Under the pieces are notes generated by a model. The model was not told where the DNA came from and ran no database searches. It saw only the letters and a program-made list of their open reading frames with translations. 30,249 nt of DNA from a virus, in IMG/VR virus record IMGVR_UViG_3300047560_001538, positions 1 to 30,249 of that record; one strand, 5' to 3'. This document shows positions 2,079-25,630 of the stretch, in pieces (positions within the stretch are counted from its first letter, which is position 1; each line of letters starts with the position of its first letter). The translations under genes and the position numbers were made by a program.

Positions 2079-3482
2079 ATGGCGATTGAAAATACTATCC
2101 TTGCGCATCTCGTCCATGATGAAGAGTATGGTCGCAAGGTCATGCCTTTCATTAAAGAAGAGTATTTCTCGGACTACCAAGACAAAGTAATCTACCAGCT
2201 CATCATCGAGTACGTAAACAAGTACAACTCCTTTCCTTCTAAAGAAGCGTTGGCTATCGACCTCTCTAACAGAGACGGCATCAATGAAGAAGCTTTTAAG
2301 CAAACAAAAGAGATCATCTCTCACCTTAAGATCGATGCCGATACACAAGAGCAGTGGTTGCTTGATCAGACAGAGAAGTGGTGTCAAGACAGAGCAATCT
2401 ACAACGCGATCATGTCTTCAATCCAGATATTGGACGACAAGACAGGAAAGACGACAAAGGGTGCAATACCTCAGATCCTCTCAGACGCCCTTGCAGTGTC
2501 ATTTGATACGCACATCGGGCACGATTTCATTGAAGATGCGGCTTCTCGCTATGAATTTTATCACACAAAAGAGATCCGTATACCGTTCGACCTCGAGTAT
2601 CTTAACAAAATCACGAACGGTGGGTTGCCTAAGAAGACGCTGAACATCTGCCTAGCTGGTACTGGTGTTGGTAAGTCTCTGTTCATGTGTCACTGTGCCG
2701 CTGCAAATCTGACACAGGGTCGCAATGTCCTGTACATCACTATGGAAATGGCCGAAGAGAAGATCGCCGAGCGCATCGATGCCAATCTATTGGACACACC
2801 CATCGATCAACTCGCGTTGCTACCTAAAGACGTGTATGACAAGAAGGTCGCGCGCATTCGTAACAATACGACCGGTAAACTGATCGTCAAAGAGTATCCT
2901 ACCGCTTGCGCTGGTTCAGCCAACTTTCGTCACCTGTTGAATGAGTTGAAGCTCAAGAAGAACTTCGTTCCAGAGATCATCTACATCGACTACCTGAACA
3001 TCTGTATGTCTTCGAGGATCAAACATGGAGCCAACGTCAATTCTTATACCTATATCAAAGCGATCGCAGAAGAACTACGAGGACTTGCGGTGGAGTTCAA
3101 TGTTCCTGTCGTCTCTGCGACTCAAACAACTCGAAGCGGATATTCGAGCAGCGACTTGGGACTGGAAGATACATCAGAATCCTTTGGACTCCCAGCCACA
3201 GCTGATTTTATGTTTGGTATCTCCACATCAGCGGACTTGGAAGACCGCGGTCAAATTATGGTTAAACAGCTCAAGAATCGCTATAATGATCCAGGGGTCA
3301 ATCGTAAGTTTGTTCTTGGTGTGGATCGCAGCAAGATGCGGCTATATGATGTAGAAGAGTCTGCACAAGATCTGTCTGACGATCGTCCTGTGATGGATAA
3401 GGGTAAGTTCATGACTGAAGACATCGAACGCAGCCTAACTAAACCAAAGTATACTAAGGAAATGTTTGCGGGGTTTAAATGA
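2079..3482 (+). CDS. gp41: Replicative DNA helicase, DnaB family (T4 gp41-like)
   Basis: Hexameric 5'-3' helicase that unwinds the replication fork and partners the primase encoded at 17838. The protein has 467 residues, the usual gp41 size. An N-terminal helical domain (about 1-140) is followed by a RecA-like ATPase core with Walker A GTGVGKS at 194-200, Walker B-type IIYIDY at 300-305 and a sensor-type VVSATQTTRSG segment around 344-354. GGAG at 2064-2067 is the likely ribosome site, 11 bases before ATG. A 48-base gap separates it from uvsX. The stop codon overlaps the next gene's start. Confidence 0.94.
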   Translation: MAIENTILAHLVHDEEYGRKVMPFIKEEYFSDYQDKVIYQLIIEYVNKYNSFPSKEALAIDLSNRDGINEEAFKQTKEIISHLKIDADTQEQWLLDQTEKWCQDRAIYNAIMSSIQILDDKTGKTTKGAIPQILSDALAVSFDTHIGHDFIEDAASRYEFYHTKEIRIPFDLEYLNKITNGGLPKKTLNICLAGTGVGKSLFMCHCAAANLTQGRNVLYITMEMAEEKIAERIDANLLDTPIDQLALLPKDVYDKKVARIRNNTTGKLIVKEYPTACAGSANFRHLLNELKLKKNFVPEIIYIDYLNICMSSRIKHGANVNSYTYIKAIAEELRGLAVEFNVPVVSATQTTRSGYSSSDLGLEDTSESFGLPATADFMFGISTSADLEDRGQIMVKQLKNRYNDPGVNRKFVLGVDRSKMRLYDVEESAQDLSDDRPVMDKGKFMTEDIERSLTKPKYTKEMFAGFK

Positions 3483-3787
3483 TGAAAAGACGTGAATTCT
3501 TTAAATTACCAGCTGGTGTTGCGCTCGGAGCATCTATCGGTGTTCCCATTGCAGAAGCAAAGTCGACTGCTATCGAAGTCCCTCAACCACCGCCGAATGA
3601 AGGGGTTCACATCGTTCTTCAAGGATACAAGAAACGAGAGACACCGCTGCAATCAACAGCTAATGGAGCTTTAGGCTACTTTAGCACTTCAGAACCGTCA
3701 GAACATAAAGTTGCTATGGCTGTTGGCGAAGACGGTCGTCTGTGGATTAAGATTGGTGATGAATGGAAGAGGGTAGCAGTAGAATGA
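3479..3787 (+). CDS. Small protein with a twin-arginine (Tat) type signal peptide
   Basis: 102 residues from ATG 3479; ATG 3482 would give one residue fewer. The N-terminus reads KRREFFK, a close match to the Tat motif S/T-RR-x-F-L-K. A weakly hydrophobic, Ala/Gly-rich stretch and a possible signal-peptidase site near IAEA (about residues 24-28) follow. The mature part is short and proline-rich, then beta-like, ending in LWIKIGDEWKRVA. This ending recalls small phage virion domains, but I cannot name a family. It overlaps the helicase stop and is followed by another Tat-like gene starting on its own stop codon. Folded export into the periplasm is inferred from the signal alone. Confidence 0.75.
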   Translation: MMKRREFFKLPAGVALGASIGVPIAEAKSTAIEVPQPPPNEGVHIVLQGYKKRETPLQSTANGALGYFSTSEPSEHKVAMAVGEDGRLWIKIGDEWKRVAVE

Positions 3788-4233
3788 ATAGGCGATCTAT
3801 GTTAGGTATGCTTGGTATCGGCGCTGCTGCTGGACCTGCTATTGCTGAGAATATTGTTTCACAATCTAGTGAAAAATCTGTTCTTGCTCATAATTACAAA
3901 TATGATGTAGATTATGGACTTGTTAACAAGTACGCTCCTGATGTTGTTCAAGAAAATCCACTACAAAGATTAGAACACATTCGCGAACATTATAATTTTC
4001 TGAAAGATAAGGGGAAATGGGTCAATGACGTCGTTTCTCGCGAAGTACAAGAACTACATAGATATGGTAGTTACCAAAATCATATCGATCCAGATATTAT
4101 GGCCTTGAAATCTTTTTCGATGTCTGCAAAAATTCGTTTTCATGTTCAGCGTAGAGCTGAAAGAAGATACGACCAAGAATTTTCTGAAGTATCTGAACAA
4201 TTGAAGTATTGGATGGAGAAAGTAGGACTATGA
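3784..4233 (+). CDS. Second small protein with a Tat-like signal peptide
   Basis: I place the start at ATG 3784, giving 149 residues. An ATG 21 bases upstream would bury the signal peptide. The N-terminus MNRRSMLGMLG has paired arginines before a Gly/Ala-rich hydrophobic run and a plausible cleavage site around AIAE (about residues 20-23). The mature part is charged and helical, with several aromatic residues (HYNFLKDKGKW, QRRAERRYDQEF) and no recognised family. The start overlaps the upstream stop (ATGA), so it is co-translated with the other Tat-like gene. Codons here are more AT-rich than in the flanking helicase gene, which may indicate separate acquisition. Confidence 0.7.
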   Translation: MNRRSMLGMLGIGAAAGPAIAENIVSQSSEKSVLAHNYKYDVDYGLVNKYAPDVVQENPLQRLEHIREHYNFLKDKGKWVNDVVSREVQELHRYGSYQNHIDPDIMALKSFSMSAKIRFHVQRRAERRYDQEFSEVSEQLKYWMEKVGL

Positions 4234-4469
4234 GTAGTTTGATAGGCGACATCAGAGCAGTAAATAAATGGGAATACGTCGAACAACCGTGGGACGGCGT
4301 TACTCTTCCACGTCCACAGCCTCAACTCATGTGCACTCAGTTCGAGTTTCAGGTGCGTAGAGTAGTTGTAACAGAAGAGGGTCTTCCAGCACTGTCTGAT
4401 TGGACTGCCATTCAGGTGTTCGATGAGTATCCAGAAACGACCAAACCAACCATCATGGTGAAGGAATGA
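4230..4469 (+). CDS. Small hypothetical protein
   Basis: 79 residues from ATG 4230, which overlaps the preceding stop as ATGA. An upstream in-frame TTG is less likely. The protein is soluble, with a Trp/Pro-rich first half (WEYVEQPWDGVTLPRPQP) and a beta-like second half. No motif is recognised. The last bases overlap the next small gene (ATGA), so it belongs to the helicase-downstream set of coupled small genes. Confidence 0.65.
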   Translation: MSSLIGDIRAVNKWEYVEQPWDGVTLPRPQPQLMCTQFEFQVRRVVVTEEGLPALSDWTAIQVFDEYPETTKPTIMVKE

Positions 4470-4859: not shown

Positions 4860-5594
4860 ATGTCAGCAGCATCGGACAAATACGAGAAAGACGTAGCGGC
4901 CTACATCAACAGGATCGCCGGCATCAAAGCTGAGCGACCATCAGTTGGCGCCGACTACTCTGACGTGAAGATCAGTAAGTTCAAGAACGAAAAGCTGGAT
5001 AAAGCTGCGTGGGTAGAAGTGAAGATGTCACACACCGACAACCTCTCCAATCCTCGCGTGTTCTACTCTGATGGTAAGTGGCAGACTACATATAAGACTC
5101 CTGCAGCTGCAGCTGCAGTCAAACTGTTGAACAACTCTAAGAAGGCGGCAGCGTTCATCACTGCTATCTCTAAGTTCTCTGGCATTCCAAAGAGCATCAT
5201 CAAGATCCCGACTACCAAGGGCGGACTCAACGAGAAGGGTGCAGTACCGTTGAAGATCATGAAGGCGTACTTCAATCAGCCCGGTGTCAATCGCTACATC
5301 CTCGACGAAGCAGACTACGACCTCGGTGAAGTAGTCACGCTGCACTACACTAAGGGTAAGACAGAGCCAGCATACTACATGCAGGCTGGTGACGACTTCT
5401 ATCTCATCTCTTCGAAGAACCCTCTCGGTCTTAACAAGAAGATTCCAGTACTCAAGGGAACTGGCAGCTTCAAGATGCGTGTTGGTACTCGTTCGGAGTT
5501 CTATGAGGTGCAAGCAGAGATCAAGATCACATCGATGCCGGATTCAGCTTATTCGGTGAAGCCAGGCACTAGCAAGAAAAACCCATTCGTATGA
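4860..5594 (+). CDS. Putative PD-(D/E)xK nuclease-like protein
   Basis: 244 residues. The N-terminal third has a layout that fits the PD-(D/E)xK nuclease fold: a first helix with acidic residues (DKYEKD, residues 6-11), a GADYSDVKI segment (30-38) and AWVEVK (50-55), where D32 or D35 with E53-x-K55 would be the metal-binding set. A Lys-rich middle and a beta-rich C-terminus follow. I do not recognise an exact family, and the nuclease reading is an inference from motif spacing. It is first in a late transcription unit and overlaps the next gene by 4 bases, suggesting a role in late DNA processing or the virion. Confidence 0.55.
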   Translation: MSAASDKYEKDVAAYINRIAGIKAERPSVGADYSDVKISKFKNEKLDKAAWVEVKMSHTDNLSNPRVFYSDGKWQTTYKTPAAAAAVKLLNNSKKAAAFITAISKFSGIPKSIIKIPTTKGGLNEKGAVPLKIMKAYFNQPGVNRYILDEADYDLGEVVTLHYTKGKTEPAYYMQAGDDFYLISSKNPLGLNKKIPVLKGTGSFKMRVGTRSEFYEVQAEIKITSMPDSAYSVKPGTSKKNPFV

Positions 5595-7927
5595 TACAGT
5601 TCACTCAATACCTCACAGAGTCGTTAGACGTAGAGAAGCTGAAACACCTCGAACACCTCGAGGATCACATCATACACGGCGGACACGAGGGTGTGGCGCA
5701 TGCCTCAGAGACTCTGTCAGATGTCGTGGCTGCGTTGGAGGGTAAACCTCGCAAGAACTTCAACCTGTCGACTAAGATCACCACTAAGTACGACGGCTCT
5801 CCTTCGATCGTATTCGGTACAGACCCACGCACCGGCAGGTTCTTCGTCGGCACCAAGTCGGTGTTCAACGAGAAGCCGAAGGCTGCATATACAGATAGCG
5901 ACATCGAACAGATGTACGGACATGCACCCGGCCTCGTTCAGAAGTTGAAGGTAGCTCTTCGTGAGTTGCCAAAGATCATGCCCAAGACTGGCGGAATTTT
6001 TCAGGGCGATCTGATGTACGAGAAGGGTGATCTGAAGGACGACGGTAAGACGTTCACGTTCACTCCCAACACCATCAGCTACTCGGCTGACGTAGACTCG
6101 GCGATGGGAAGACAGATCGCTGCTGCCAACCTCGGCATAGTTGTGCATACCAAGTACACTGGCAAGACTTTTGAGGACATGAAGGCGTCGTTCGATGTGG
6201 ATCAGACTGCGTTCCAGAAGGACCCTCTGGTGCACATGATCAATCCCGAAGTTACTAGTGCAAACATCGCGCCGATCGAGAAGAAGCAGTACGAGGCCGA
6301 GATACAGCAGGCGACTGACCTGTACTCGCAGATGCCAGAGGACGTGTTCAACGTCGTCGACGGCCACGACGTGTTGATCAAGACGTACATCAACCAGTGC
6401 ATCAAGGACAAGACTGTCCCGACTGCTAAGGGCTACCTCGGCTTCATCAAGGCACGTAATAAGAAAGAGATAGAGAAGAAGAAGTCACCCGACGGCAAAG
6501 CTAAGGCTCGTGAGAAGGGTGCTGTGATAGAAGATCACGTGAAGAACCACATGGACACCATCGACGCTGTGTTCAAGATGCACGGACACCTTCAGCGTGC
6601 GAAGAACGCTCTGGTCAACGCGCTGTCGAGAGTAGAGACCGGATTCAAGACTACCATCGGCGGCAAGCCTACCAAGCCAGAGGGATTCGTAGCCATTCGC
6701 GGTGGTAGACCTACCAAGCTAGTGGACCGCGCAGAGTTCAGTGCGGCCAACTTCGCCATGGGTGCTTTCCGTAAAGGCAGCAAGGAAGAACAAGCTGCGG
6801 CAGAGGATCTCAATCCAGTCGTCACGTCGTTCGCCCGTATGAACCCGCCGACTTACTACGGTCATGGTGCGGTAGTAAGCAAGGTGAAGGAACTGGCTGA
6901 TGAGATGAAGGCCAAGTCAGTCATCGCTCTGTCGCGTTCGCAGGATCCAGAGAAGAACCCTCTGACTCCGGAGCAGAAGCTGAAGCACGCCAAGCGCATG
7001 TTCCCCGACGCCAACATCGTCATAGCTGACGAGGACGCCAAGGACATGATGAGCCACATCAAGAAGCTGGCTGGCAAGGGTCACAAGCATTTGGTCCTAG
7101 TGGTAGGATCGGATCGCGTAGAGGAGATGAGAAAGCTCCTTGACAGGTACAAGGACCAGTTCGGCTTCAAGAAGGTCGACGTGGTGTCTTCCGGCGACAG
7201 AGACATGGAGTCTGACAAGGAAGAGGAACCCGGCGCGAAGAAGCCCGAGACCGAAGAGGACATTCGTCGCGGCATGTCTGCATCCAAGATGAGGGGTCAT
7301 GCTATCCGTGGACAGTACAAGGACTTCCGTCACGGCTTCCATCCAGACACACCAGAAGAAGTAACTCGAGAGATGTACGACGAAGTGCGTAAGGGCATGG
7401 ACATCAAGATCGATGCCTCAACTCCCATTAGAGCACTAGTCAACCATGCCAAGAGAAAAGATCCGATCGGTGTCAAGGCAAGAAGAGAACTAGAGAGACG
7501 ACACAAAGCCGGTGAGATGGAAGAGACCAGACAGAAGGCTATAAGAGCTGCCAAGAGACCGGTCAAAGCGCCGCCTAAAGCTGCCACTAAAGCACCCGCG
7601 CCGACTGTCGCCAAAAAGCCAGCGGGATTAAAATCAGCACAGAGAAACCCCGTGCGAGTTAAGACTCCTTCGAAGAGCATCCGTGAAGAGATGACGACCG
7701 GAGACATCAGGGGCATGGGTTACGTGACAGGCAATCCTCTCGTAGATGCCGGATTCCAAACAGTGTGGACTGCCATGAATCAGGCTGACGCGGACACCAA
7801 AGATCAGATCATGAACCAGACGAAGAAGAGCTTACACGACGACCTGCATGCCAACATCGAGGCACGCAGAGAATCCATGAAGCAAAACTTCATACGTTCG
7901 GTAGTCAGTTCTATAAATAGAAAATAA
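5591..7927 (+). CDS. Large fusion: ligase-like nucleotidyltransferase domain plus cytidylyltransferase-like domain
   Basis: 778 residues. The N-terminal 400 residues carry marks of the covalent nucleotidyltransferase (DNA/RNA ligase) superfamily: KYDGS at 66-70 (motif I, K66 the candidate adenylated lysine), FFVGTKSVF (84-92), GGIFQGDLM (134-142, motif III-like), EGFV (364-367, motif IV-like) and KLVDR (376-380, motif V-like). Residues about 410-580 look like an HxGH-type nucleotidyltransferase: SFARMNPPTYYGH (413-425) and MSASKMRG (562-569), the usual ISxTxxR position. The remaining C-terminus is very basic. Similar marine phage proteins are, from memory, labelled cytidylyltransferase. Substrate is unknown; RNA end repair or nucleotide/NAD metabolism are options. 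It lies in a late unit with the 4860 gene. Confidence 0.7.
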   Translation: MIQFTQYLTESLDVEKLKHLEHLEDHIIHGGHEGVAHASETLSDVVAALEGKPRKNFNLSTKITTKYDGSPSIVFGTDPRTGRFFVGTKSVFNEKPKAAYTDSDIEQMYGHAPGLVQKLKVALRELPKIMPKTGGIFQGDLMYEKGDLKDDGKTFTFTPNTISYSADVDSAMGRQIAAANLGIVVHTKYTGKTFEDMKASFDVDQTAFQKDPLVHMINPEVTSANIAPIEKKQYEAEIQQATDLYSQMPEDVFNVVDGHDVLIKTYINQCIKDKTVPTAKGYLGFIKARNKKEIEKKKSPDGKAKAREKGAVIEDHVKNHMDTIDAVFKMHGHLQRAKNALVNALSRVETGFKTTIGGKPTKPEGFVAIRGGRPTKLVDRAEFSAANFAMGAFRKGSKEEQAAAEDLNPVVTSFARMNPPTYYGHGAVVSKVKELADEMKAKSVIALSRSQDPEKNPLTPEQKLKHAKRMFPDANIVIADEDAKDMMSHIKKLAGKGHKHLVLVVGSDRVEEMRKLLDRYKDQFGFKKVDVVSSGDRDMESDKEEEPGAKKPETEEDIRRGMSASKMRGHAIRGQYKDFRHGFHPDTPEEVTREMYDEVRKGMDIKIDASTPIRALVNHAKRKDPIGVKARRELERRHKAGEMEETRQKAIRAAKRPVKAPPKAATKAPAPTVAKKPAGLKSAQRNPVRVKTPSKSIREEMTTGDIRGMGYVTGNPLVDAGFQTVWTAMNQADADTKDQIMNQTKKSLHDDLHANIEARRESMKQNFIRSVVSSINRK
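7912..7919 (+). promoter_or_regulatory. T4-type late promoter box TATAAATA
   Basis: Exact TATAAATA lying in the last codons of the upstream gene and 26 bases before the ATG at 7946 of a virion-type gene. Confidence 0.75.
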
Positions 7928-10505: not shown

Positions 10506-10784
10506 ATGATGAGCATTGAATCAATCATTGGAGTAGCAGTAATCGCTGGTGCTGGTTGGGTCGTATGGAAGATGCTGACCAAGGGCGAGACTGTACAGCA
10601 GGCTGCAGCAGAAGCAGCAGCTGAAGTTAAGGCTGAAGTAGCCAAGGTAGCTGACGTCAACGGCGACGGCAAGGTCGACATGGCTGATGCAGTAGAAGCT
10701 GTGAAGAAGACTCGCGGCGCTGCTAAGAAGGCTGCAGGCAAAGTCAAGGCTGCTGCTAAGAAGACTAAGAAGGCTAAGGCGTAA
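10506..10784 (+). CDS. Small membrane-anchored protein with an EF-hand-like loop and histone-H1-like tail
   Basis: 92 residues from ATG 10506 (ATG 10509 also possible), with GGAG at 10497-10500. One N-terminal membrane segment is at about 6-24. An Ala/Glu-rich linker follows, then a 12-residue loop D50-V-N52-G-D54-G-K56-V-D58-M-A-D61, a dockerin/EF-hand-type calcium-binding pattern. The last 30 residues are almost only Lys and Ala, like histone H1 tails, and could bind DNA. Function is unknown. It overlaps the dps-like gene by one base (TAATG) and shares its late unit. Confidence 0.7.
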   Translation: MMSIESIIGVAVIAGAGWVVWKMLTKGETVQQAAAEAAAEVKAEVAKVADVNGDGKVDMADAVEAVKKTRGAAKKAAGKVKAAAKKTKKAKA

Positions 10785-11221
10785 TGGATGAACTAGTCGA
10801 ACAGATGAAGGTAGTGCTGGCGAGTGCTTTCTCGCTTTACCTCAAGGCGCACTACTTTCATTGGAACGTAGAGGGTCCTAACTTCCCGCAGTATCACTCT
10901 TTCATGGGTGACTTCTACGAGGAAGTCTACGGTTCGATCGATACTATAGCAGAAGAGATGAGAGCTCTGGGTGCTTATGCTCCCGGTTCTCTCAAGCGTT
11001 TCTCTGAGTTGTCTAAGATCGAGGACGAGACAGCTATTCCAGATGCCGCGCGCATGATCAAGATCCTGTTCATGGACAACCAGATCGTGCTCGACGAGTT
11101 AGCAAAAGCGCGAGAATTAGCAGAAAGTGCTAATAAGTACGGACTCGTTAACTTCCTGGAAGACAGGTTGGACAAACATTCCAAGCATCAGTGGATGCTA
11201 AGATCAACTATAAAGGCGTAA
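10784..11221 (+). CDS. dps: Dps-like ferritin (DNA protection / iron storage)
   Basis: 145 residues, the size of mini-ferritins. The family signature is clear: KAHYFHWNVEGPNFPQYH (residues 21-38), then a segment with I-D53-TIAE57-EMRALG. H26, H38, D53 and E57 fall at the spacing of the Dps ferroxidase ligands formed between subunits; one usual acidic ligand (position 42) is Gly, with D43 next to it. Dps dodecamers oxidise Fe(II) with hydrogen peroxide, limiting Fenton damage, and some bind DNA. Here it could protect phage or host DNA, store iron, or be packaged. There is no Lys-rich tail of its own, but the gene just upstream ends in one. Confidence 0.88.
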   Translation: MDELVEQMKVVLASAFSLYLKAHYFHWNVEGPNFPQYHSFMGDFYEEVYGSIDTIAEEMRALGAYAPGSLKRFSELSKIEDETAIPDAARMIKILFMDNQIVLDELAKARELAESANKYGLVNFLEDRLDKHSKHQWMLRSTIKA

Positions 11222-12966: not shown

Positions 12967-13258
12967 CAACATAAACACTAAGCAATCTCCACCGCCGCGC
13001 GAAGCGCCGATTGTCGAACCGATCTCATTCACTGAGATAGTTCAGAAGAGGTTGGATGCAGAAGTAGCTAGCAAGAGACCGCTCATCTACAATCCAATAG
13101 AAGCTGCAGCTCTCGTAACGGTTCAAAGACAAGATCCAGAACCAGAACATGAAACAGAACCAGTTCAGCAGTCCAATCAGAACGACGTAATAGTTCCAAG
13201 AAGAGTGACTAAACGTTCGCAGTACATGCGAGACATGTTGACCGTGGAAAAACTATAA
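12950..13258 (+). CDS. Small hypothetical late protein
   Basis: I place the start at ATG 12950, giving 102 residues and a 17-base overlap with the previous gene; a longer version would overlap by 86 bases. The sequence has a Pro-rich start, a helix (ISFTEIVQKRLDAEVASK), an acidic Gln/Glu/Pro linker and a basic end (RRVTKRSQYMRDM). No motif is recognised. Its stop codon TAA is part of the late promoter box at 13254-13261. Confidence 0.6.
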   Translation: MALIANNINTKQSPPPREAPIVEPISFTEIVQKRLDAEVASKRPLIYNPIEAAALVTVQRQDPEPEHETEPVQQSNQNDVIVPRRVTKRSQYMRDMLTVEKL

Positions 13259-13261
13259 ATA
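13254..13261 (+). promoter_or_regulatory. T4-type late promoter box TATAAATA
   Basis: Exact TATAAATA overlapping the upstream stop (the TAA inside the box is the stop codon). It precedes a strong ribosome site AGGAGG at 13282-13287 and the ATG at 13296, suggesting high late expression. Confidence 0.75.
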
Positions 13262-13295: not shown

Positions 13296-14009
13296 ATGGC
13301 ACAATGGGGTAGAAACGATAAGGCTGTTACTGCCAACAGCACTACTACTAAAGAGACGTCAACTGGCGCGCCGATCGGTACTTACGCTCTCGTCAAGGGT
13401 GATCAAGTAGGCCGCGTCAACGGCGCTAACGCTCACTACGGCAACACTTCGCCTGGCTCACGCGCTAACGTAGACGTACGTATGTTCAATAACACTACAC
13501 CGAGCGCTTTCATTCCTGGTCAAGCTGTCGGTGTATTCGGTGTAGACACTACTGAAATCGCTGTAAGCAACACAGCAGGCATCGCGCATGCTGGTTGGAA
13601 CGTTCGCCGCGCTGGTACAGGCCCGATCACTTCGATCACTTACACCGGTACTGCAACTGGTTACAATAATACTGACGTCATCACGGTCGCTTCTCCAGTC
13701 GCAGGTGGCAACGCTACTGCTACCGTATCGACTAACTCTACTGGCGGCGCTCTTAGCATCACTATCACTAATGCTGGTAAAGGATTCTTCCTGGTTAACG
13801 CTTCTGCTAACGTATCTATAGCCAACTCTACTGGTGGTTCTTCTGCTGGTTCAGGTGCTACTTTCCGTGCTACTGCAGGCGGTCGTGCTGGTCGAGTTCA
13901 CTATGAAACTCTCGTAGCAATGGGTTCACTCGGCAAGCAGTCAGCAGCTTATGGTACTGCAGCTACTGTAGCAGACGCCAGCGACGACACTATCCTTCCA
14001 GACTCCTGA
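13296..14009 (+). CDS. Abundant-type virion structural protein
   Basis: 237 residues. The N-terminal MAQWG, the FGVDTTE / GIAHAGW segment (about 81-101) and the C-terminal GRAGRVHYETLVAMGS (196-211) match, from memory, a structural protein family common in marine T4-like phages. Residues about 109-195 are a Gly/Thr/Asn-rich beta insertion (TGYNNTDVITV, ITNAGKGF) that breaks the otherwise short core. A late promoter and one of the strongest ribosome sites in the window (AGGAGG, 8 bases from ATG) point to a high-copy virion protein. Its position in the particle is unknown. Confidence 0.75.
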   Translation: MAQWGRNDKAVTANSTTTKETSTGAPIGTYALVKGDQVGRVNGANAHYGNTSPGSRANVDVRMFNNTTPSAFIPGQAVGVFGVDTTEIAVSNTAGIAHAGWNVRRAGTGPITSITYTGTATGYNNTDVITVASPVAGGNATATVSTNSTGGALSITITNAGKGFFLVNASANVSIANSTGGSSAGSGATFRATAGGRAGRVHYETLVAMGSLGKQSAAYGTAATVADASDDTILPDS

Positions 14010-14047: not shown

Positions 14048-14860
14048 ATGACGACTGACTCGAGGAGAGTATCCGAATTAGGAATAACCAGCACTGTATC
14101 CGCTAACGATAGAGTGCTGGTACTCACTAATCCGAATACCAGTGCTAACGTACAGACGATAACTGTACGCAACCTAACGACTTATCTTCCTATAGCTAAC
14201 AGCACTGTACCCGGTGTCATCAAGATAGGACCGGGTCTCTCAGTCGCTGCCAACGGTACTGTTACCGCTCCTCTTCCAGTAGCTTCAGGCGATGTAACCG
14301 GTGTAGTCAAGATCGGTTCGGGTATCAACGTAGACGCGAACGGCGTCATCAGTGTTTCTGGCGGCGGATCTGCTAATACCGGTAACATTAGATTTAACGA
14401 AGACGTAATCTACACAAACAGCGGCGAAACAATCTTTATCAACAACCCTAACAACGCCATTCAAATAGGCGGTCAGTGGTTGGTTCAGATGTCAGCCACG
14501 TCAAATGCTGAATCTCTTTGGGGTTCTGGTAATACACAGTCATATGCATGGGTCTATCAAGATCCAAACTATAGTAATGGCTATGCTGAATTTGGAACTT
14601 ACGTTTCAGGAGATACTGGTGAAAACCACTATGCTGAAATGTTTGTTACTTCCAATACAGAAAATATGTTCTTTATCGGACACAATGATGGTGTAAATTA
14701 TAAGAGATTGACTTACAGTGCGAATTGTGTATTCAATTTACCAGAAGGTGGCGATTATAGAATAAATGGTGTATCTATTGTAGGTACAGGCGAAATAGAT
14801 GGCGGCAACGCGTTCACTAGTCCAACAGCCGAAATAACCGTAGACGGAGGCGGTGCTTAA
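14048..14860 (+). CDS. Tail fibre-like protein
   Basis: 270 residues. An N-terminal attachment-like part (MTTDSRRVSELGITSTVSAN) is followed by two fibre repeats, VPGVIKIGPGLSVAANG (54-70) and VTGVVKIGSGINVDANG (83-99), a pattern typical of tail fibres in marine T4-like phages. From about residue 115 the sequence changes to an Asn/Tyr/Gly-rich beta region and the codons become noticeably more AT-rich, consistent with a swapped distal domain. It ends in a Gly-rich tail. It sits directly upstream of the adhesin gene, and together they form a likely host-recognition unit. Confidence 0.75.
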   Translation: MTTDSRRVSELGITSTVSANDRVLVLTNPNTSANVQTITVRNLTTYLPIANSTVPGVIKIGPGLSVAANGTVTAPLPVASGDVTGVVKIGSGINVDANGVISVSGGGSANTGNIRFNEDVIYTNSGETIFINNPNNAIQIGGQWLVQMSATSNAESLWGSGNTQSYAWVYQDPNYSNGYAEFGTYVSGDTGENHYAEMFVTSNTENMFFIGHNDGVNYKRLTYSANCVFNLPEGGDYRINGVSIVGTGEIDGGNAFTSPTAEITVDGGGA

Positions 14861-14861
14861 T

Positions 14862-16127
14862 ATGACACAGATCAAACTACGCAGAGACACAGCCGCTAAT
14901 TGGGCTACTGCTAATACAGTACTCGCTCAGGGTGAACCTGCTATTGACGGAACAAATCGCGGTTTAAAAATTGGTGATGGTAATACTGCTTGGACAGATT
15001 TACCATATCTAGCTGGTGGTTATCCAATGCCTAGTATTACCTATACTGGTACATTTGGTCAGGAACCAACTTACTGGGTGTTTGCAGAACCAAAGAAGCT
15101 TCTACAAACATCAAACAATACATTTGCAAATGGATCAAATCTGTATTGGTTAGATCAGAGATTCGACGATCAATACTATGATCTCAGTGCTCTTGAATCA
15201 ATTTCATTTAATAACATCGGTGGAATAACAGACTATCTCGATTTCTCAGACAAATCCGAATTAGCTCTAGAAAGCATTGACTTTGGAGATCTGGCTATTG
15301 TACAAGATAGTTTTTATCTATCGGGATTTGGTGGTGTTCTTCAAACAGTAACAGCAAATAATCTTTCTTTTGTTGGTGGTACATTAGAAATATACAGCAA
15401 CGGTTTTACTGATGGACCAAACCTAGAGTTTCCTAGTCTTCAGTTAATAAGCAGCGATTTGTATCTTGATTACAACAATGAATATAATGGTTTGTCAAAT
15501 ACTGCTGCTCCATCGTTTTCTGCTTTAGAATCAGTTGGCTCATCAGTTCAAATTTATCAAAATTCTTTTAATTCATATCCTGAATTCACTTCATTAGAAC
15601 GTGTAGATTGGTCTTTCACTTTCACCAATAATTGGTGCAATGAAAATAGCTATGCTGGTCCAGGTATTCCTGCAATCGTAAGCGTTCCTGGGTATGTTCA
15701 ATATTATAACAATGGTAATATGACAAGTATTCCAGAATTCACAAACCTAGCTACTGTTGGTTATTGGGTTCAGTTCTACAACAACAGCTCATTAACAGAT
15801 TTCCCATCGATGCCAGCTCTTGTAGAAACAACAAATGGCGGTATTGAAGCGTATAACTGCACTAGCATGACTACTGTAGGAACATTTTTACCAGTTGTTA
15901 AGAAGATAGGTGGTGATGTTAATTTTGAAAACTGTGCGCTTGATGAAGCTTCCGTAGACGCTATCCTTGCTAAACTTGTATCCCTAGATGGCACTAATGG
16001 AACAACGTTATATGAATATCGCAATGTATATCTTCACAATGGAACAAACGCCATTCCTTCTGCGCAAGGTCTTGCTGATGTAGCGACTCTTCAAGGTCGT
16101 GGCTGTAACGTATATGTAAATTCATAA
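14862..16127 (+). CDS. Repeat-rich adhesin / receptor-binding protein
   Basis: 421 residues from ATG 14862, one base after the upstream stop. A GTG at 14853 is possible, but GGAGG at 14846-14850 is too close to it. The N-terminus (IKLRRDTAANWATANTVL ... GLKIGDGNTAWTDLPYL) is a fibre-attachment domain seen in many phage tail proteins. The rest is a solenoid-like series of irregular leucine-rich-repeat-like units (LESISFNNI, LESIDFGDL, LESVGSSVQIYQNSF, TNLATVGYWVQFYNN) rich in Asn, Tyr and Phe, suitable as a receptor-binding surface. The coding region is AT-rich relative to the window. It probably sets host range; the receptor is unknown. Confidence 0.75.
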   Translation: MTQIKLRRDTAANWATANTVLAQGEPAIDGTNRGLKIGDGNTAWTDLPYLAGGYPMPSITYTGTFGQEPTYWVFAEPKKLLQTSNNTFANGSNLYWLDQRFDDQYYDLSALESISFNNIGGITDYLDFSDKSELALESIDFGDLAIVQDSFYLSGFGGVLQTVTANNLSFVGGTLEIYSNGFTDGPNLEFPSLQLISSDLYLDYNNEYNGLSNTAAPSFSALESVGSSVQIYQNSFNSYPEFTSLERVDWSFTFTNNWCNENSYAGPGIPAIVSVPGYVQYYNNGNMTSIPEFTNLATVGYWVQFYNNSSLTDFPSMPALVETTNGGIEAYNCTSMTTVGTFLPVVKKIGGDVNFENCALDEASVDAILAKLVSLDGTNGTTLYEYRNVYLHNGTNAIPSAQGLADVATLQGRGCNVYVNS

Positions 16128-16136
16128 GGATAAAAA

Positions 16137-16835
16137 ATGGCAGACATTATCGTATCAACATCTGGAACATCTGGCGGCATGGGCAAACAGCTTGCTCTTT
16201 CGCCTGAAATTATGAAACTTCGTGTCGATATGACTGACATTGGCAAGGGTAAAAACATTACTGATTGCAAAGTCGTATACGTAGCAAAGGCAGTTGGTTC
16301 TTCATCTTTCCAACGTTGGAAAGCATGGGCTGAAGTAAAGGGTAAGAAAGTTCTTACTGCAGTTAAACCAGATAAGATTCTTGAAACTTTTGCAAAAGAA
16401 GGCGTTGATGCTATTGACGCCGCGCCCGGTTATCTTGTAATGGTTGCAAAGATGTATGAAGCGACCGGCAAATCAGCAAATCTTAAGCAAGTTATCTCCG
16501 GTCATGATAAGATGGAACGCTCTGACATTCCATATATTCAGAAGTGGCTTGGTAAAGACTTTCAGATCGGCTATGGTTGTACTGAAATTGGTACAGTTGC
16601 TTCTGGTTCAGCAGAAGAAGTTGCTGACATCGACGGTTGCGTCGGTAAGCCATTAGAAGGAATCGTTGTAGAGATAGATGCTGGTTATATTCGCATCAAG
16701 TCACCATCTATGGCAGAGAACTACTTAGACTTTGCTGAGATGGATGCAATCCACTTCAGAAACGGATGGTTCTATCCGGGCGATATGGGTTATTTTACAG
16801 CTGACGGAAGGCTGGTAATCACTAAAAATAGATGA
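16137..16835 (+). CDS. Shortened ANL-superfamily (AMP-forming acyl-CoA synthetase-like) domain
   Basis: 232 residues carrying the central motifs of adenylate-forming enzymes in order: A3 STSGTSGG (7-14), an A4-like segment around 91-105, A5 GYGCTE (145-150), A6 GCVGKPLEGIVVEI (167-180), A7 FYPGDMGYF (212-220) and the start of A8, GRLVITKNR (224-232). Full enzymes have about 500 residues: here the roughly 150-residue N-terminal part and the whole C-terminal subdomain with the A10 lysine are missing, and the protein ends at the hinge. AAGGA precedes ATG. It follows the adhesin gene by 9 bases. It may still bind ATP or an acyl/aminoacyl ligand, modify the fibre, or act as a chaperone; all are inference. 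Confidence 0.8.
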   Translation: MADIIVSTSGTSGGMGKQLALSPEIMKLRVDMTDIGKGKNITDCKVVYVAKAVGSSSFQRWKAWAEVKGKKVLTAVKPDKILETFAKEGVDAIDAAPGYLVMVAKMYEATGKSANLKQVISGHDKMERSDIPYIQKWLGKDFQIGYGCTEIGTVASGSAEEVADIDGCVGKPLEGIVVEIDAGYIRIKSPSMAENYLDFAEMDAIHFRNGWFYPGDMGYFTADGRLVITKNR

Positions 16836-16839
16836 TGTG

Positions 16840-17238
16840 ATGAGTGAAGCTTTGAATGAAGATGTGTTTTTGATATATTGTGCCAAGTACTATGACAATC
16901 CAAACTGCCATAGTACAGATGAATTTCTCGAAGACTTGAAGAGAATCAAGTACATCAAGAAGCTCGTGACTAGATATGTCGAGAACGGAGAGTTGAAGGA
17001 AAGGTTGATTCTAAATCATTTGACCATCCTCAACAACGTCTTTGGACCAGAACATACGTGTAAGATACTTTACTTGAAGATGAAGAGTCAGTTTGAGTAT
17101 ATCAAGCCATTTCTGATACTGTTAAATATATTACCAAAGACTATTTTGAATGTAAATGATGAAGTGTCTATAGACACAGATTTGATTCCTATGGACGAGA
17201 ACATAGTAAGAGCGTTAAGAGAGATCAGGAATGGATAA
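16840..17238 (+). CDS. Conserved phage protein, function unknown
   Basis: 132 residues from ATG 16840 (a GTG at 16837 is also in frame). The protein is helical with a central stretch KRIKYIKKLVTRYVENGELKERLILNHL split by charged residues (about 34-61), then LKMKSQFEYIKPFLILLNILP. I recall similar proteins as conserved hypotheticals in T4-like marine phages; no function is known. It begins 4 bases after the ANL-like gene and overlaps the next small gene by 8 bases. Confidence 0.7.
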   Translation: MSEALNEDVFLIYCAKYYDNPNCHSTDEFLEDLKRIKYIKKLVTRYVENGELKERLILNHLTILNNVFGPEHTCKILYLKMKSQFEYIKPFLILLNILPKTILNVNDEVSIDTDLIPMDENIVRALREIRNG

Positions 17239-20355: not shown

Positions 20356-20793
20356 ATGAAGAAGTTAGTTATAGCCTTTTTACTAATTTCTTCTGCTTCC
20401 CACGCCTCTGAAATGCAGTTTGGGTTCAAGAGTCCTGCATTCAACGGCGTGGGTTTTTCGTCTCATGTTCTTACTATTGATAATCTGGAACAGACCAGAA
20501 AGCAGAAGATCATAGACGACAAGAAGGCAGAGGCTGCCAAAGCGGCTGCCGACGCTAAGAACACAAACTTAGCAAAATTCCTAAATAACCTAGAGAGTCG
20601 TATCTACGCCACAATCTCGCAGAACATAGCTGCTGAGTTGTTTAAAGACGGTGGTGCGACCTCTGGTGCTTTTGATATTCAGGGTAACCATCTACAGTGG
20701 TCGTCTGACGGATCTAGCATCACACTGACTATAACTGATGCCGGCGGCAGCACTACGCAAGTCGTCGTACCCTACGGAAGTTTAGCATGGTAA
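20356..20793 (+). CDS. csgF: CsgF-like curli assembly factor
   Basis: 145 residues with a Sec signal peptide (MKKLVIAFLLISSASHA, about 1-17). The mature start EMQFGFKSPAFNGVGFSS (about 19-36) fits the CsgF N-terminal segment that plugs into the CsgG pore (E. coli pattern: FxFxNPNFGGNP). The C-terminal beta part (ITLTITDAGGSTTQVVVPYG) also fits. A Lys/Ala-rich helical insertion (about 52-68) separates the parts. In curli systems CsgF sits at the outer face of the CsgG channel and couples export to fibre nucleation. The csgG start overlaps its stop. The DNA around 20399-20458 also has a terminator-like inverted repeat. Confidence 0.85.
   Translation: MKKLVIAFLLISSASHASEMQFGFKSPAFNGVGFSSHVLTIDNLEQTRKQKIIDDKKAEAAKAAADAKNTNLAKFLNNLESRIYATISQNIAAELFKDGGATSGAFDIQGNHLQWSSDGSSITLTITDAGGSTTQVVVPYGSLAW
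20399..20458 (+). terminator. Terminator- or attenuator-like structure inside csgF
   Basis: A perfect 8-bp GC-rich inverted repeat, CCCACGCC (20399-20406) / GGCGTGGG (20446-20453), is followed at once by five T residues (20454-20458). Nested inside is a second perfect repeat, AATGCAG (20412-20418) / CTGCATT (20435-20441). It begins at the end of the signal-peptide coding part. Coupled translation would keep it open; stalled translation could let it form and stop transcription of the cluster. The fold is visible; the regulatory role is inferred. Confidence 0.45.
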
Positions 20794-21590
20794 AAGCCTT
20801 TGTCATAGCTTTAGCTTTGGTTCTAACTGGTTGTGCCGGTAAAGGTATCACTCAAAAGACCATTGAGAAAGAAGTGGATGGTCCTGAGATAGTGACACAC
20901 AAGCGATTCAACGAGCTAGTCAACATAACTGCTCCAGATGGTCCTGTAATACCGATCGCAGTGTATCGCTTCAATGACATGACTGGACAGCGTAAGCCAA
21001 ATAGCAACTACGCTTCTCTAAGTTCAGCAGTCACACAGGGCGGCGAAGTATTTCTGATCAAAGCATTACAAGATGCTGGCAAGGGTAAGTGGTTTCAACC
21101 GGTCGAGAGAGTCGGCCTTGAGAACTTAGTTAAAGAGAGACAGCTTATTCGTTCTCAGCGTGAGACGTATGAGAAAGATCAAGCTAAACCTCTTGTACCT
21201 CTAATCGTTGCGGGAGTGATGATAGATGGTGGAATTGTGGGTTACGATACTAATATCGCTACTGGTGGTTTGGGCGCTAGATTCCTTGGAGTAGGCGCTG
21301 ATCAACAGTACAGAAAAGATGAAGTCACTATCATGTTGCGACTCATCTCAGTAAACACCGGTGAGATCCTTCTCTCTACCGGTTCGACTAAGACAATTTA
21401 CAGTACCGGCGTGAGCGCTAACGTCATGAAGTTCGTGGACGCAGGTACTAAGTCAGTAGAGCTAGAAGCTGGTTCAACTATCAACGAGCCTACGACTTAT
21501 GCAGTGAGAATAGCGATTGAAGCAGCCGTTACAGATATGATTAAAGAGGGAGCAAAAAGAAAGATCTGGGGTTTCAAGAAAGGGAAATAA
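20787..21590 (+). CDS. csgG: CsgG-like outer-membrane curli secretion channel (lipoprotein)
   Basis: 267 residues, near the 277 of E. coli CsgG. A lipoprotein signal with lipobox LTGC (C16) is followed by the CsgG core: AVYRFNDMTGQRKP (58-71), FQPVERVGLENLVKERQLI, IVGYDTNIATGGLGARFLG, GADQQYRKDEVTIMLRL, NTGEILLSTGSTKTI. All align by eye with the E. coli protein, including the membrane-spanning segments. CsgG forms a nonameric 36-strand pore exporting curli subunits. At the constriction loop (KPNSNYASLSSAV, 70-82) the residues equivalent to E. coli N55/F56 appear to be S77/L78. It overlaps csgF and abuts the curlin-like gene. Confidence 0.93.
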   Translation: MVKAFVIALALVLTGCAGKGITQKTIEKEVDGPEIVTHKRFNELVNITAPDGPVIPIAVYRFNDMTGQRKPNSNYASLSSAVTQGGEVFLIKALQDAGKGKWFQPVERVGLENLVKERQLIRSQRETYEKDQAKPLVPLIVAGVMIDGGIVGYDTNIATGGLGARFLGVGADQQYRKDEVTIMLRLISVNTGEILLSTGSTKTIYSTGVSANVMKFVDAGTKSVELEAGSTINEPTTYAVRIAIEAAVTDMIKEGAKRKIWGFKKGK

Positions 21591-22265
21591 ATGAAACTAA
21601 TAACAAGAATGATGGCGTTTTTGTCATTCTTGGTTATGTTTCAATATGCAAATGCGGCGAGCAACAGCATCTATATGGATCAAATAGGTGATGGCTCCAC
21701 GATCTCGATCACGCAGACTGGCAGCGGAAATCAGGTTGGCAATAGTACGAACAGAGCCACTCTGAACGGCAATAATAATAGTGTTACTGTTCAACAGATT
21801 GGTAACTCTAACGTCACGAACATAAACGTAGACGGTGCAGGCGCGACTGTGACTAGTAATGTAACTGGTAGTTCGAACCAATCCACGATCAATTGCGACT
21901 CATGTACTGGTACTACTATCAATAAGACTGTAACGGGTGACGGTAACACCGTATCTATTCAGAACGACGGTGTCGCGACTACTAATGTATCAGTATCGTC
22001 TGATAACAATACCGTGACTATGACTAACAACTCTACGAACGCAGCTGGCGTAGTCAACAACATCGATATATCTGGTGGCAACGGTAACCAAGTGACTGTA
22101 GATCAGACTGGTGCAGCTAGCACTACTGGTCATTCGCTTGATCTTACTATAACTGGTGCGCTTAATACAACTACTATAGGACAGGGTGGCGCAGTTGATT
22201 CAAAGGTTAATGCTACTATCACTGGCTCTAGCAACACTCTTACTATTAAGTCCAACCACAACTAA
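21591..22265 (+). CDS. Curlin-repeat protein (CsgA/CsgB-like), secreted
   Basis: 224 residues with a signal peptide (about 1-22, ending QYANA). The mature part is almost wholly short beta repeats rich in Asn, Thr, Ser, Gly and Val. Several fit the curlin pattern with QxGxxN: MDQIGDGSTISITQTGSGNQ (29-48), VQQIGNSN (67-74), GNGNQVTVDQTG. A CDSC cysteine pair (C102, C105) is unusual for curlin. It begins on the base after the csgG stop and is the obvious export substrate. The last 80 bases overlap the next gene in another frame. A 9-bp inverted repeat lies just inside its 5' end. Confidence 0.75.
   Translation: MKLITRMMAFLSFLVMFQYANAASNSIYMDQIGDGSTISITQTGSGNQVGNSTNRATLNGNNNSVTVQQIGNSNVTNINVDGAGATVTSNVTGSSNQSTINCDSCTGTTINKTVTGDGNTVSIQNDGVATTNVSVSSDNNTVTMTNNSTNAAGVVNNIDISGGNGNQVTVDQTGAASTTGHSLDLTITGALNTTTIGQGGAVDSKVNATITGSSNTLTIKSNHN
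21604..21632 (+). promoter_or_regulatory. Hairpin at the 5' end of the curlin-like gene
   Basis: CAAGAATGA (21604-21612) pairs perfectly with TCATTCTTG (21624-21632) around an 11-base loop. It starts 13 bases after the ATG, inside the signal-peptide codons, where an mRNA hairpin could slow early translation or protect the message. Confidence 0.3.
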
Positions 22266-23304
22266 AGCGGACATCGGTAGAGTAACAGAGCAGACTGGTC
22301 CGACTGAAATTAAGAGGAACAACTCAAGCGTTCCATCTCAAGTTCAGTCTGAGATAGAGATGAACGACGTGGTATCTACTGCGAATTCAAAGGCAGGTAT
22401 CACGTTCAAAGATGATACTAAAGTACAGATCACGGAACACTCTCGTCTCGTGATCGATAACTTTGTCTATGATGGTGAGAAGAAGACCGGTAAGCTGGGC
22501 ATCAAGATGGCGCTCGGTACTATTAAGTACGCTTCTGGTCAGATAGCTAAGAACGATCCACAGCAAGTCGTAGTAGAGACTCCAACTGCTACCATCGGTG
22601 TACGTGGTACCGACTTCTCTGGAACCGTCGACGAGACTGGTAAGTCGACTATTATCTTATTACCTTCATGTCCTGCAGGATGGAAGAACTTACAGAGAGA
22701 TTGCACAGTAGGTAACATCACTGTAACTACGATGATGGGTACAGTGTTACTTACTAAAGCGTTTGAATCTGTAACAGTCAGCACTGGCATACAGCAGCCG
22801 AAGTCTGCTCTTCTAAATCTTTCTCTAGATCAGATCAATAACATGTTGATCGTTACACCGCCAAGAGAAGTAAGACAAGAACAGAGCAGGGGTATAACGA
22901 AAGCATTTAACTTCCTAGATCAAGACTTCTTGTCTGTAGACTACTTAAAGTTTACTGCGCTGGAACAGAACGCTCTGGATAGACCAACTGGATTAGATAA
23001 GAACTATCTGGCTTATGAAGACTATCTTCTCAACTATCTGGACGTGACTGCTGCACAGATGTTGAGTAACGAGCTCGATCAGTTCAATGCTCTTCTACCT
23101 AAATACGACAAGACTACAGGCCTTAAGTACTTCGTCGATAATGACTACGTTACCCTGTACAGAGAGACTGCTAGCCACTACGCTGAAGTCACTCTGAGTA
23201 CTACAAGGATGGCGACTCTGAATTTAAGTCAGGACGGTATTACTGTGAAGCAAGTGGTTAATGGTCCCGGCACTACAACTATAACTATAAAGCAGAGCCA
23301 ATGA
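22186..23304 (+). CDS. Secreted FecR-domain protein
   Basis: 372 residues from GTG 22186, chosen because it gives the signal peptide a charged start (Arg 7) before the hydrophobic run; ATG 22210 would give an uncharged start but is possible. After the signal (cleavage near TKA, residue 28) comes a FecR domain (about 29-160), including AGITFKDDTKVQITEHSRLV and the hallmark TPTATIGVRGTDF (132-144). Cysteines C162 and C173 follow. The C-terminal 170 residues are helical then beta, with no known domain. FecR domains of this type act in the periplasm or at the cell surface. It lies between two curlin-like genes and overlaps both. Confidence 0.82.
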   Translation: MAQLIQRLMLLSLALATLLLLSPTTTKADIGRVTEQTGPTEIKRNNSSVPSQVQSEIEMNDVVSTANSKAGITFKDDTKVQITEHSRLVIDNFVYDGEKKTGKLGIKMALGTIKYASGQIAKNDPQQVVVETPTATIGVRGTDFSGTVDETGKSTIILLPSCPAGWKNLQRDCTVGNITVTTMMGTVLLTKAFESVTVSTGIQQPKSALLNLSLDQINNMLIVTPPREVRQEQSRGITKAFNFLDQDFLSVDYLKFTALEQNALDRPTGLDKNYLAYEDYLLNYLDVTAAQMLSNELDQFNALLPKYDKTTGLKYFVDNDYVTLYRETASHYAEVTLSTTRMATLNLSQDGITVKQVVNGPGTTTITIKQSQ

Positions 23305-23564
23305 AGATACTTATAGCGCTACTCTTAATCTCTACATCTGTCCATGCACAGACCGTAAACAATGCTACAGTGAACATGCAAGGAACGAATCAAAATGTTA
23401 TTATTACTCAAAGCGGTGGAAGCCATTCTGCTAGTGTGGACCTGCGTGGAAATGGTATTACTTTTCTTGGATCCCAAAGCGGAACATCTAATCAAAGTTA
23501 CAGCATTGCTATTGATTGCGGCAGTAACTGTCCCACCAGCCCGTATACAATTACACAGTACTAA
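23301..23564 (+). CDS. Second, short curlin-like secreted protein
   Basis: 87 residues with a clear signal peptide (MKILIALLLISTSVHA, 1-16). The mature protein has NVNMQGTNQNVIITQSGG-like short beta repeats resembling curlin units (QGTNQN, QSGGSHSA, SQSGTSNQS) and a Cys pair, DCGSNC (C73, C77), similar to CDSC in the larger curlin-like protein. Its small size suggests a minor subunit or nucleator (CsgB-like), but this is inference. The start overlaps the FecR gene stop (ATGA), and two bases separate it from the cyclase gene. Confidence 0.65.
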   Translation: MKILIALLLISTSVHAQTVNNATVNMQGTNQNVIITQSGGSHSASVDLRGNGITFLGSQSGTSNQSYSIAIDCGSNCPTSPYTITQY

Positions 23565-23566
23565 CG

Positions 23567-25630
23567 ATGGAAAAGTTAGGCATCATTCTTACCAGCAAAT
23601 GGGCAGCTGTTCTTTCAGCGATGATCTTTATCGCTGTGGCAGTATGGAATCCAACCGCCGTTGAAACTTTACAACTGAAGACCTTTGACTACTTCATTAC
23701 GTCACTAGACAGTAAAGAGTCCGAGGAGATAGTACTTGTTGAGTTCGGTGAAAAGTCTGTACAGAGTTTTGGCCAGTGGCCGTTCGATCGTCGAGACATC
23801 GCGAAGACTATTGACAAGCTTCGTGAGAACGGCGCAGCCATTATTGCAGTTCCTATCCTGTTTTCTGAAAAAGATCGTGCAGGCGGCGACTCCGCTCTTG
23901 AAAAGAGTATCGCTGGCGGTGGCATCGTTATATCACAGACACCAACTTCTCAAACCAGAAACCCAGATGCTGCTCGCCGAGGGTTTGCTGCTATCGGTAA
24001 TGATCCTGCTCCATATCTCTTTACTTGGCGCGGGGCTATCCCTCCTCTTCCAAATCTTGCAGGAAATGCAGACGGCGTTGGACTCTTGGCTGTTGCTCCC
24101 GAGCGCGACGGTGTTGTTCGTCGCGTGCCTATGTTGGCTCGCATTGGGGATACACTGTATCCTTCACTTGTACTGGAAACCCTACGCACAGCTGCTGGAG
24201 ACCCCTCCTATCAAATCAAAACTGGTGACGCCGGTGTCGAGGCCGTCCGTATCCCGGCCTTCCCAGCCATCTCTACAGATCAGAACGGTCGCGTCTGGAC
24301 AACCTGGAACAATAAGTTCAGACAAGTTGAAGCAACTGAAATCCGTAAGACAGATGTCGAAGGGAAAATTGTTGTCTTAGGGTTAACAATCGAGGGAGTC
24401 GGTGGTATAATAGCTACTCCAGTCGGCGAGAAGTGGGCTCACGAAGTTCAAGCTCAGACCCTTCAGACTCTGATCGATGGGACTTCTGTTTCGAGAGCTT
24501 CATATGCGAGTTTAGTAGAAATAGGAATAACAACAATACTGCTATTGATGTTAGTTGTCCTAGTGCCACGAGTGTCTGTACGATTGACTGTCCCATTTTA
24601 TGTTCTCTTTATTGGACTTGTTATCGGTGGTTCTTACTACTTATTCCATACTCATCTTCAGTTGTGGAATCCAAGCTATATAGTCTTGTCTGGAACTATG
24701 GTGTTCTTCCATCTGGTATATAATAACTTTGCCAGAGAGAACAGACTGAAGTTACAAATCAAGAAGCAGTTTGGAACTTATCTGTCACCTAAGATGGTAG
24801 AGAAGTTGCAAGAGAATCCTGACCTACTTAAGCTTGGAGGAGAGACTCGTGAGCTTTCGATTATGTTTACTGACGTCCGTGGCTTTACATCTATTTCTGA
24901 GCATTATGGCGCTGACGTTCAAGGCTTAACACAGATCATGAACCGTTACATGACTGCCATGACTGCAAAGATCCTACAGAACGAGGGTACGTTAGATAAG
25001 TACATCGGCGACGCGCAGATGGCATTCTGGAATGCACCGCTTGACGATGCTGATCATGCAAAGAACGCAGTAAAGACTGCACTGGAGATGTTAGGTGACT
25101 TGGAACGATTTAATAGAGAAATTGCGGTGGAAGGTGTACCTGCTTTTGGAATGGGCCTTGGAATCAATACTGGTTCTGTCGTTGTGGGTAATATGGGAAG
25201 CTCCCAGCGTTTCGACTATACCTGCCTCGGTGATTCTGTTAATCTCGCTTCACGTCTTGAAGGACAGTCGAAGCCTTATCATGTCAAACTCGTCATTGGA
25301 CAACGTACTTACGAGTTGGTAAAAGACGAGTACCTATGTCTTGAACTTGACTGTATCGCTGTTAAGGGAAAGAAGGAGGGTGTGAACATCTACACGATCG
25401 TAGATAACAATAGTTTGAACGTAGCTTATTCTCGTACTCATGCTGACTTCATTCAACTATATCGCTCCCAGCAGTGGAATAGAATGAAAGAATACTATAT
25501 GACTCTAAGAGATGCTTTTAGCGGAGATATGAGAGAGTACTACGATATGATGATGGAGAGAGTGGAGGAGTTCATTAAGAATCCTCCAGGTAATGATTGG
25601 GACGGAATCTACCGTGCGACTAGCAAATAA
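23567..25630 (+). CDS. CHASE2-domain membrane adenylate cyclase (class III)
   Basis: 687 residues. An N-terminal membrane segment (about 10-28) leads to a CHASE2 extracytoplasmic sensor (about 35-310). Three membrane spans follow at about 313-335, 340-360 and 368-386. The class III cyclase domain (about 428-615) has the metal-binding aspartates D436 (FTDVRGF) and D482 (YIGDAQMAFW), K478 and D550 at the base-recognition positions, and transition-state N559/R563 (GDSVNLASRLE). K and D there favour ATP, so cAMP is the likely product. All catalytic residues appear intact. No ribosome site is obvious; it is probably coupled to the curlin-like gene 2 bases upstream. It converges with the minus-strand genes. 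Confidence 0.93.
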   Translation: MEKLGIILTSKWAAVLSAMIFIAVAVWNPTAVETLQLKTFDYFITSLDSKESEEIVLVEFGEKSVQSFGQWPFDRRDIAKTIDKLRENGAAIIAVPILFSEKDRAGGDSALEKSIAGGGIVISQTPTSQTRNPDAARRGFAAIGNDPAPYLFTWRGAIPPLPNLAGNADGVGLLAVAPERDGVVRRVPMLARIGDTLYPSLVLETLRTAAGDPSYQIKTGDAGVEAVRIPAFPAISTDQNGRVWTTWNNKFRQVEATEIRKTDVEGKIVVLGLTIEGVGGIIATPVGEKWAHEVQAQTLQTLIDGTSVSRASYASLVEIGITTILLLMLVVLVPRVSVRLTVPFYVLFIGLVIGGSYYLFHTHLQLWNPSYIVLSGTMVFFHLVYNNFARENRLKLQIKKQFGTYLSPKMVEKLQENPDLLKLGGETRELSIMFTDVRGFTSISEHYGADVQGLTQIMNRYMTAMTAKILQNEGTLDKYIGDAQMAFWNAPLDDADHAKNAVKTALEMLGDLERFNREIAVEGVPAFGMGLGINTGSVVVGNMGSSQRFDYTCLGDSVNLASRLEGQSKPYHVKLVIGQRTYELVKDEYLCLELDCIAVKGKKEGVNIYTIVDNNSLNVAYSRTHADFIQLYRSQQWNRMKEYYMTLRDAFSGDMREYYDMMMERVEEFIKNPPGNDWDGIYRATSK

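Follow-up and report, generated by a model that had tools for sequence, protein, structure and literature searches.

Members of the ANL superfamily, a large and common group of adenylate-forming enzymes, normally have about 500 residues and a mobile lid. What, then, could be the role of a phage protein that retains only the central ANL core, nucleotide motifs included, and accompanies a single type of phage fibre? The locus lies in a stretch of viral DNA of 30,249 nucleotides (IMG/VR record IMGVR_UViG_3300047560_001538, positions 1 to 30,249), here called the window, which comes from a T4-like, aquatic phage related to Melnitz and HTVC008M (41-43% in the primase). The core looks like a maintained partner of the fibre rather than a broken gene. 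Our leading reading, to which we give a probability of about 0.42, is that it serves the fibre as a dedicated ATP-binding or adenylate-forming core and would mature or modify a fibre of the LRR type, with a partner replacing the parts that have been lost. The novel point of the analysis is the linkage of the core to this fibre.

The core gene and its extent

By sequence and predicted fold the core belongs to the ANL superfamily, yet it is not a complete ANL enzyme. In a protein profile search it scored 33.4 bits against PF00501 (AMP-binding; gathering threshold 29.9 bits), covering positions 244-384 of the 384 in the profile, and its phage relatives scored 32-52 bits. The best NCBIfam model was TIGR01923 (MenE; E 3.7e-14), at 52 bits against a curated 330.

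Table 1. Features of the fibre locus in the window
Feature	Position	Strand	Support or remark
T4-type late promoter TATAAATA	13254..13261	+	42 bases before operon
Variable structural-type gene (MAQWGRND...), first of operon	13296..14009	+	Homologue upstream in most related loci
Fibre anchor-like protein	14048..14860	+	N-terminus similar to short genes that relatives have at this site
Mtd_N + LRR-type fibre protein, linked partner	14853..16127 (start maybe ATG 14862)	+	PF18454 E 3.3e-13; PF01030 weak; tail-fibre PHROGs
Short ANL core protein, 232 aa, A3 to A8 arginine	16137..16835	+	PF00501 E 2.9e-8
A3 P-loop TSGTSGGMGK, residues 8-17	16158..16187	+	
A5 YGCTE, residues 146-150	16572..16586	+	
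A7 GWFYPGD, residues 210-216	16764..16784	+	
A8 arginine R232, final codon of core gene	16830..16832	+	
DUF7207/phrog_407 gene, right-hand boundary of exchangeable cassette	16837..17238	+	PF23837 E 2.5e-34

An earlier reading of the sequence alone (the sequence-only reading) had motifs A3 to A8 all present in order. This holds for A3, A5, A6 (GCVGKP, residues 167-172), A7, and the A8 arginine, but A4 has no recognisable consensus in the core and A8 is reduced to its first arginine. That residue, R232, aligns with the R of 'GR' in full-length ANL enzymes and is kept as the terminal residue in 5 of 5 phages. The same reading saw correctly that both ends of a canonical enzyme are missing: the N-terminal subdomain that precedes A3 is absent, the upstream gene being the fibre, and the chain goes no further than the A8 arginine, lacking the C-terminal lid and its A10 lysine (PF13193). 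In the window, as in each of its complete relatives, an in-frame stop lies 2-4 codons 5' of the ATG, so that no N-lobe has been overlooked through the choice of start. The protein begins seven residues before TSGTSG, not five as had been counted, and the clean ends and good ribosome site that had been described correspond to ends common to five phages and to a conserved purine-rich ribosome site at the core start.

Predicted structure

Structure prediction, proposed in the sequence-only reading as a check, returned an ANL core fold that depended on homologues. AlphaFold2 gave a model with pLDDT 93.5 and pTM 0.89 from a 33-sequence alignment in which the core segments of full-length cellular ANL genes were included; from the five phage sequences alone the pLDDT was 59. 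Because the high value needed full-length homologues, the model gives the fold class and not the stability of the lone protein. All 232 residues of the core superpose on the A3-A8 middle part of solved ANL enzymes with Z up to 23.8, as for residues 163-410 of 5ie2 (Z 23.8, rmsd 2.4, 225 residues; VIA). The predicted core thus has the A3-A8 fold of the superfamily, in a model that leaned on ANL homologues. ANL enzymes contact the nucleotide through A3, A5, A7, and the A8 arginine, and their substrate pocket lies mostly between A4 and A5; the stretch from A3 to A8 that holds both is kept whole in the core.

Relatives, conservation, and selection

Short ANL proteins standing alone at fibre loci, which the sequence-only reading had suggested looking for, occur in four further phages. 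A direct search gave L001, a search with the resulting two-sequence alignment gave L024, and a scan for DNA encoding GWFYPGD gave L039, L040, L053, and L054. L054 is identical to L040, and L053, another contig, holds only a C-terminal piece of the core, leaving five distinct phages with the window included. Several GWFYPGD matches of 168-188 aa were unrelated proteins, and L099 and L100, from a start-anchored pattern scan, were not members. The complete relatives (L001 86%, L024 about 64-65%, L039 58%, and L040 53% identity) have 232-233 aa and the same ends. Since these ends are shared by all complete phage members and the cellular genes are long, the trimming is ancestral to the phage family rather than a local accident.

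Between the core and L001, dN is 0.084 and dS 0.846 (dN/dS about 0.1), and conservation is concentrated at the nucleotide site: across the five phage proteins, 16 of 18 nucleotide-site motif positions are invariant, against 85 of 232 positions overall (hypergeometric P=3e-6), and the other two are S/T exchanges. In A3, residues G10, T11, S12, G14, and K17 are invariant in all phage members, and G10, G14, and K17 also across the 33 ANL sequences; in A5, Y146, G147, and E150 are invariant in the phage members, and E150 in all 33 sequences; A7 is invariant across all phage members. Positions 62, 66, and 217, which are hydrophobic in full-length ANL enzymes, are polar in the phage cores (62 and 66 charged), as could be expected if they lined a newly exposed face. 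Judged from the sequences, the identical ends in five phages together with purifying selection exclude a chance origin of the core.

Searches for missing parts

Could the core be what is left of an ANL gene that was once full-length or split, given that two parts of the canonical enzyme are missing? We consider this highly improbable. The ends stay the same in five phages down to 53% identity, selection is purifying at the dN/dS given above, in-frame stops lie just 5' of each ATG, and no lid or N-lobe was detected elsewhere in a 157-kb relative. The earlier judgement that the gene is not decayed thus fits its shared boundaries and low dN/dS, and neither a split gene whose partner had been lost nor a frameshift, the two findings that would have told against that judgement, was found in the relatives or their phage records. 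In six phage records, one of them of 157 kb, PF13193 (AMP-binding_C) had no match and PF00501 at most one match per record, with positive controls in 12 of 14 genomes; in the 157-kb relative a single ANL core was detected, and no lid domain. A six-frame PF00501 search of the window missed the core gene that the protein search detects, so a strongly diverged lid might escape detection too.

The short form was absent among the 29 loci of a cellular genome scan, where ANL genes have 478 aa or more when complete (one match, L075, is cut by a contig end), and the neighbours of these cellular relatives (kinases, FMO, P450, AAA, and methyltransferase genes) have no common theme. Other matches to the protein query were set aside; they lay only in unannotated fecal and Listeria 'phage' contigs, are probably bacterial, and belong to ANL genes of at least 440 aa, apart from L028, which a contig end truncates. 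Ahead of the primase, Melnitz and HTVC008M carry no gene annotated as ANL, and neither gave a tblastn match; a 12-kb region of the locus had no megablast match among GenBank phages, PADLOC gave no match, and no description of short phage ANL proteins was found in the open-access literature.

Linkage to the LRR fibre

The association with fibre genes noted in the sequence-only reading proved specific: in 5 of 5 distinct phages, the core lies directly 3' of a complete fibre gene of one type, whose LRR part is common to the window, L001, L024, L039, and L040. L039 and L040 have no Mtd_N, the LRR region being fused instead to an anchor-like N-terminus, and the ANL core still follows directly 3'; the pairing of core and LRR region persists despite exchange of the fibre N-terminus. 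Two cysteines of the LRR part are invariant, one of them close to the C-terminus. A separate scan for the LRR region found the core behind it at every locus except L090, whose contig ends inside the fibre (positions 3437-4291, 63% identity), before the expected place of the core. A distant LRR protein of cyanophage S-CBWM1 (30% over 45%) was rejected; an unrelated 164-aa gene comes after it.

Retrieval through the DUF7207 gene gave 20 viral loci, and the 11 related DUF7207 loci with enough upstream sequence carry other or shorter genes at this site, neither LRR region nor core. With both present at five loci, only one at none, and neither at 11, Fisher's exact test gives P about 2e-4 (1 in 4368), for a sample that is biased because the LRR query was built from core-carrying loci. 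Pairwise distances of the core correlate with those of the LRR region at r 0.95 and with those of the primase at 0.79 (partial correlation with the LRR region 0.97 given the primase), the pairs not being independent.

Expression of this operon is likely late in the window and in L001, where the late promoter stands at the same spacing from the operon. The element TATAAATA occurs 7 times in the window against 0.68 expected, and none of 100 shuffles reached 7; no exact copy was seen before the operon in L024, L039, or L040. Within the operon, the anchor-like ORF overlaps the next ORF by 8 bases, and the first gene (13296-14009) and its homologues in L001 and L005-L021 are conserved at both ends, with a middle part that differs between phages in both sequence and length.

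Other genes in the window

Several further genes of this phage were recorded. Genes for CsgF (PF10614), CsgG (PF03783), and a curlin-repeat protein stand in a row at 20356-22265, with TATAAATA just upstream (20329); HTVC008M and Melnitz have similar curlin-repeat genes, although two published descriptions say that such phages lack csgA and csgB. At 22186-25630, a FecR-domain protein precedes a CHASE2-adenylate/guanylate cyclase; the Melnitz annotation lists both and that of HTVC008M the cyclase, and the word 'cyclase' is absent from those two papers. A ferritin/Dps-like protein (10784-11221; PF00210 E 7e-26) lies shortly before the structural block. The region 5591-7927 encodes a DUF6267 protein, downstream of which a stretch with NPPTYYGH resembles, by eye, a nucleotidyltransferase signature, and a small protein at 3763-4233 has an N-terminus (MNRRSMLGMLGIGAAAGPAIA) that on inspection by eye resembles a leader of the signal or Tat type.

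Possible roles of the core

From the sequence of the core we infer ATP binding and catalysis, and from its neighbourhood the fibre as its target. Because the nucleotide contacts and most of the substrate pocket lie within A3 to A8, the core would bind ATP and a carboxylate. It would act on the LRR fibre during virion assembly: an acyl-adenylate that it forms could modify the fibre or a ligand bound to the fibre, or ATP binding could serve to mature the fibre. The face exposed by the missing N-lobe could be covered by self-dimerisation or by the fibre. The invariant ATP-site residues favour activation of a small molecule. Canonical ANL enzymes use the A10 lysine for adenylation, and its absence from the core speaks against an enzyme; adenylation by a core that lacks the lid is uncertain, and with the lid missing, a CoA thioester is unlikely to be formed unless this part comes from a partner. 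The stronger proposal of ATP-driven adhesin modification, in which the receptor-binding fibre would be enzymatically matured by its own minimal ANL enzyme and the fibre or a self-dimer would supply the missing lobe and lid, is speculative and, we think, rather unlikely.

Phage fibre chaperones and gp38-type adhesins are encoded by the gene after the fibre. A non-catalytic fibre chaperone, cap, or tip, in which the ANL fold would have taken on the folding, capping, or extension of the LRR fibre, is the main alternative and would suit the position of the core directly after the fibre, its linkage to it, and the absent lid lysine, as well as the known exchange of fibre and cognate chaperone as one module between marine phages (PMC10579305). 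What it explains poorly is that the nucleotide-site residues are the most conserved part of the core, and a tip in contact with the host would hardly evolve more slowly than its fibre, as the core does (53-65% identity against 35-46% for the LRR fibre in distant pairs). No PHROGs family matched the core at E 0.1. The loss of the lid lysine and the linkage to the fibre leave room for such a reused fold.

The core might instead act on the host, as an auxiliary enzyme or a decoy that binds, for example, host acyl-adenylates or carrier proteins, and be tied to the fibre only through its operon position. Its cellular ANL relatives are full-length and presumably metabolic, in line with this idea, but the core is linked to one fibre type, is missing where sister phages have other genes at the locus, and has a late operon position in the window and L001, and we regard a host-directed role as improbable.

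Taken together, the earlier overall view of a minimal core that is not decayed and is linked to the fibre stands on the shared ends, the low dN/dS, and the linkage, and the results do not decide between the roles that it offered. If active, the fibre-dedicated core that we favour would rank as remarkably small among natural ANL enzymes and would offer a new means of diversifying phage adhesins; if not active, it would show that an enzyme fold has been taken over for a chaperone or tip role at the fibre.

Comparison with known systems

MenE (o-succinylbenzoate-CoA ligase) and related ANL acyl/aryl-CoA ligases, the best Foldseek matches, have the same fold as the core over residues about 141-383 and share with it A3, A5, A6, A7, and the A8 arginine. 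Compared with MenE, the core lacks the N-lobe (about 140-160 residues), the lid, and the A10 lysine, at about 20% identity. The PaaK family retains the C-terminal lid, whereas both ends are missing from the core. The PaaK of B. cenocepacia resembles the core in having lost its first ANL subdomain while retaining the ligand site, a 'domain atrophy' of a part that touches ligands little and for which dimerisation compensates (PMC4432964). Alteromonas phages A5 and V22 exchange fibre and chaperone together, a likeness to the core-fibre pair in organisation only, and the available part of the source describes no ANL relationship of these chaperones (PMC10579305). Closest in extent is another phage protein, the 214-aa 'AMP-dependent synthetase/ligase' A0A6J5L770 of an uncultured Caudovirales phage (BFVD), which covers the same core (TM 0.68/0.73) at 19% identity.
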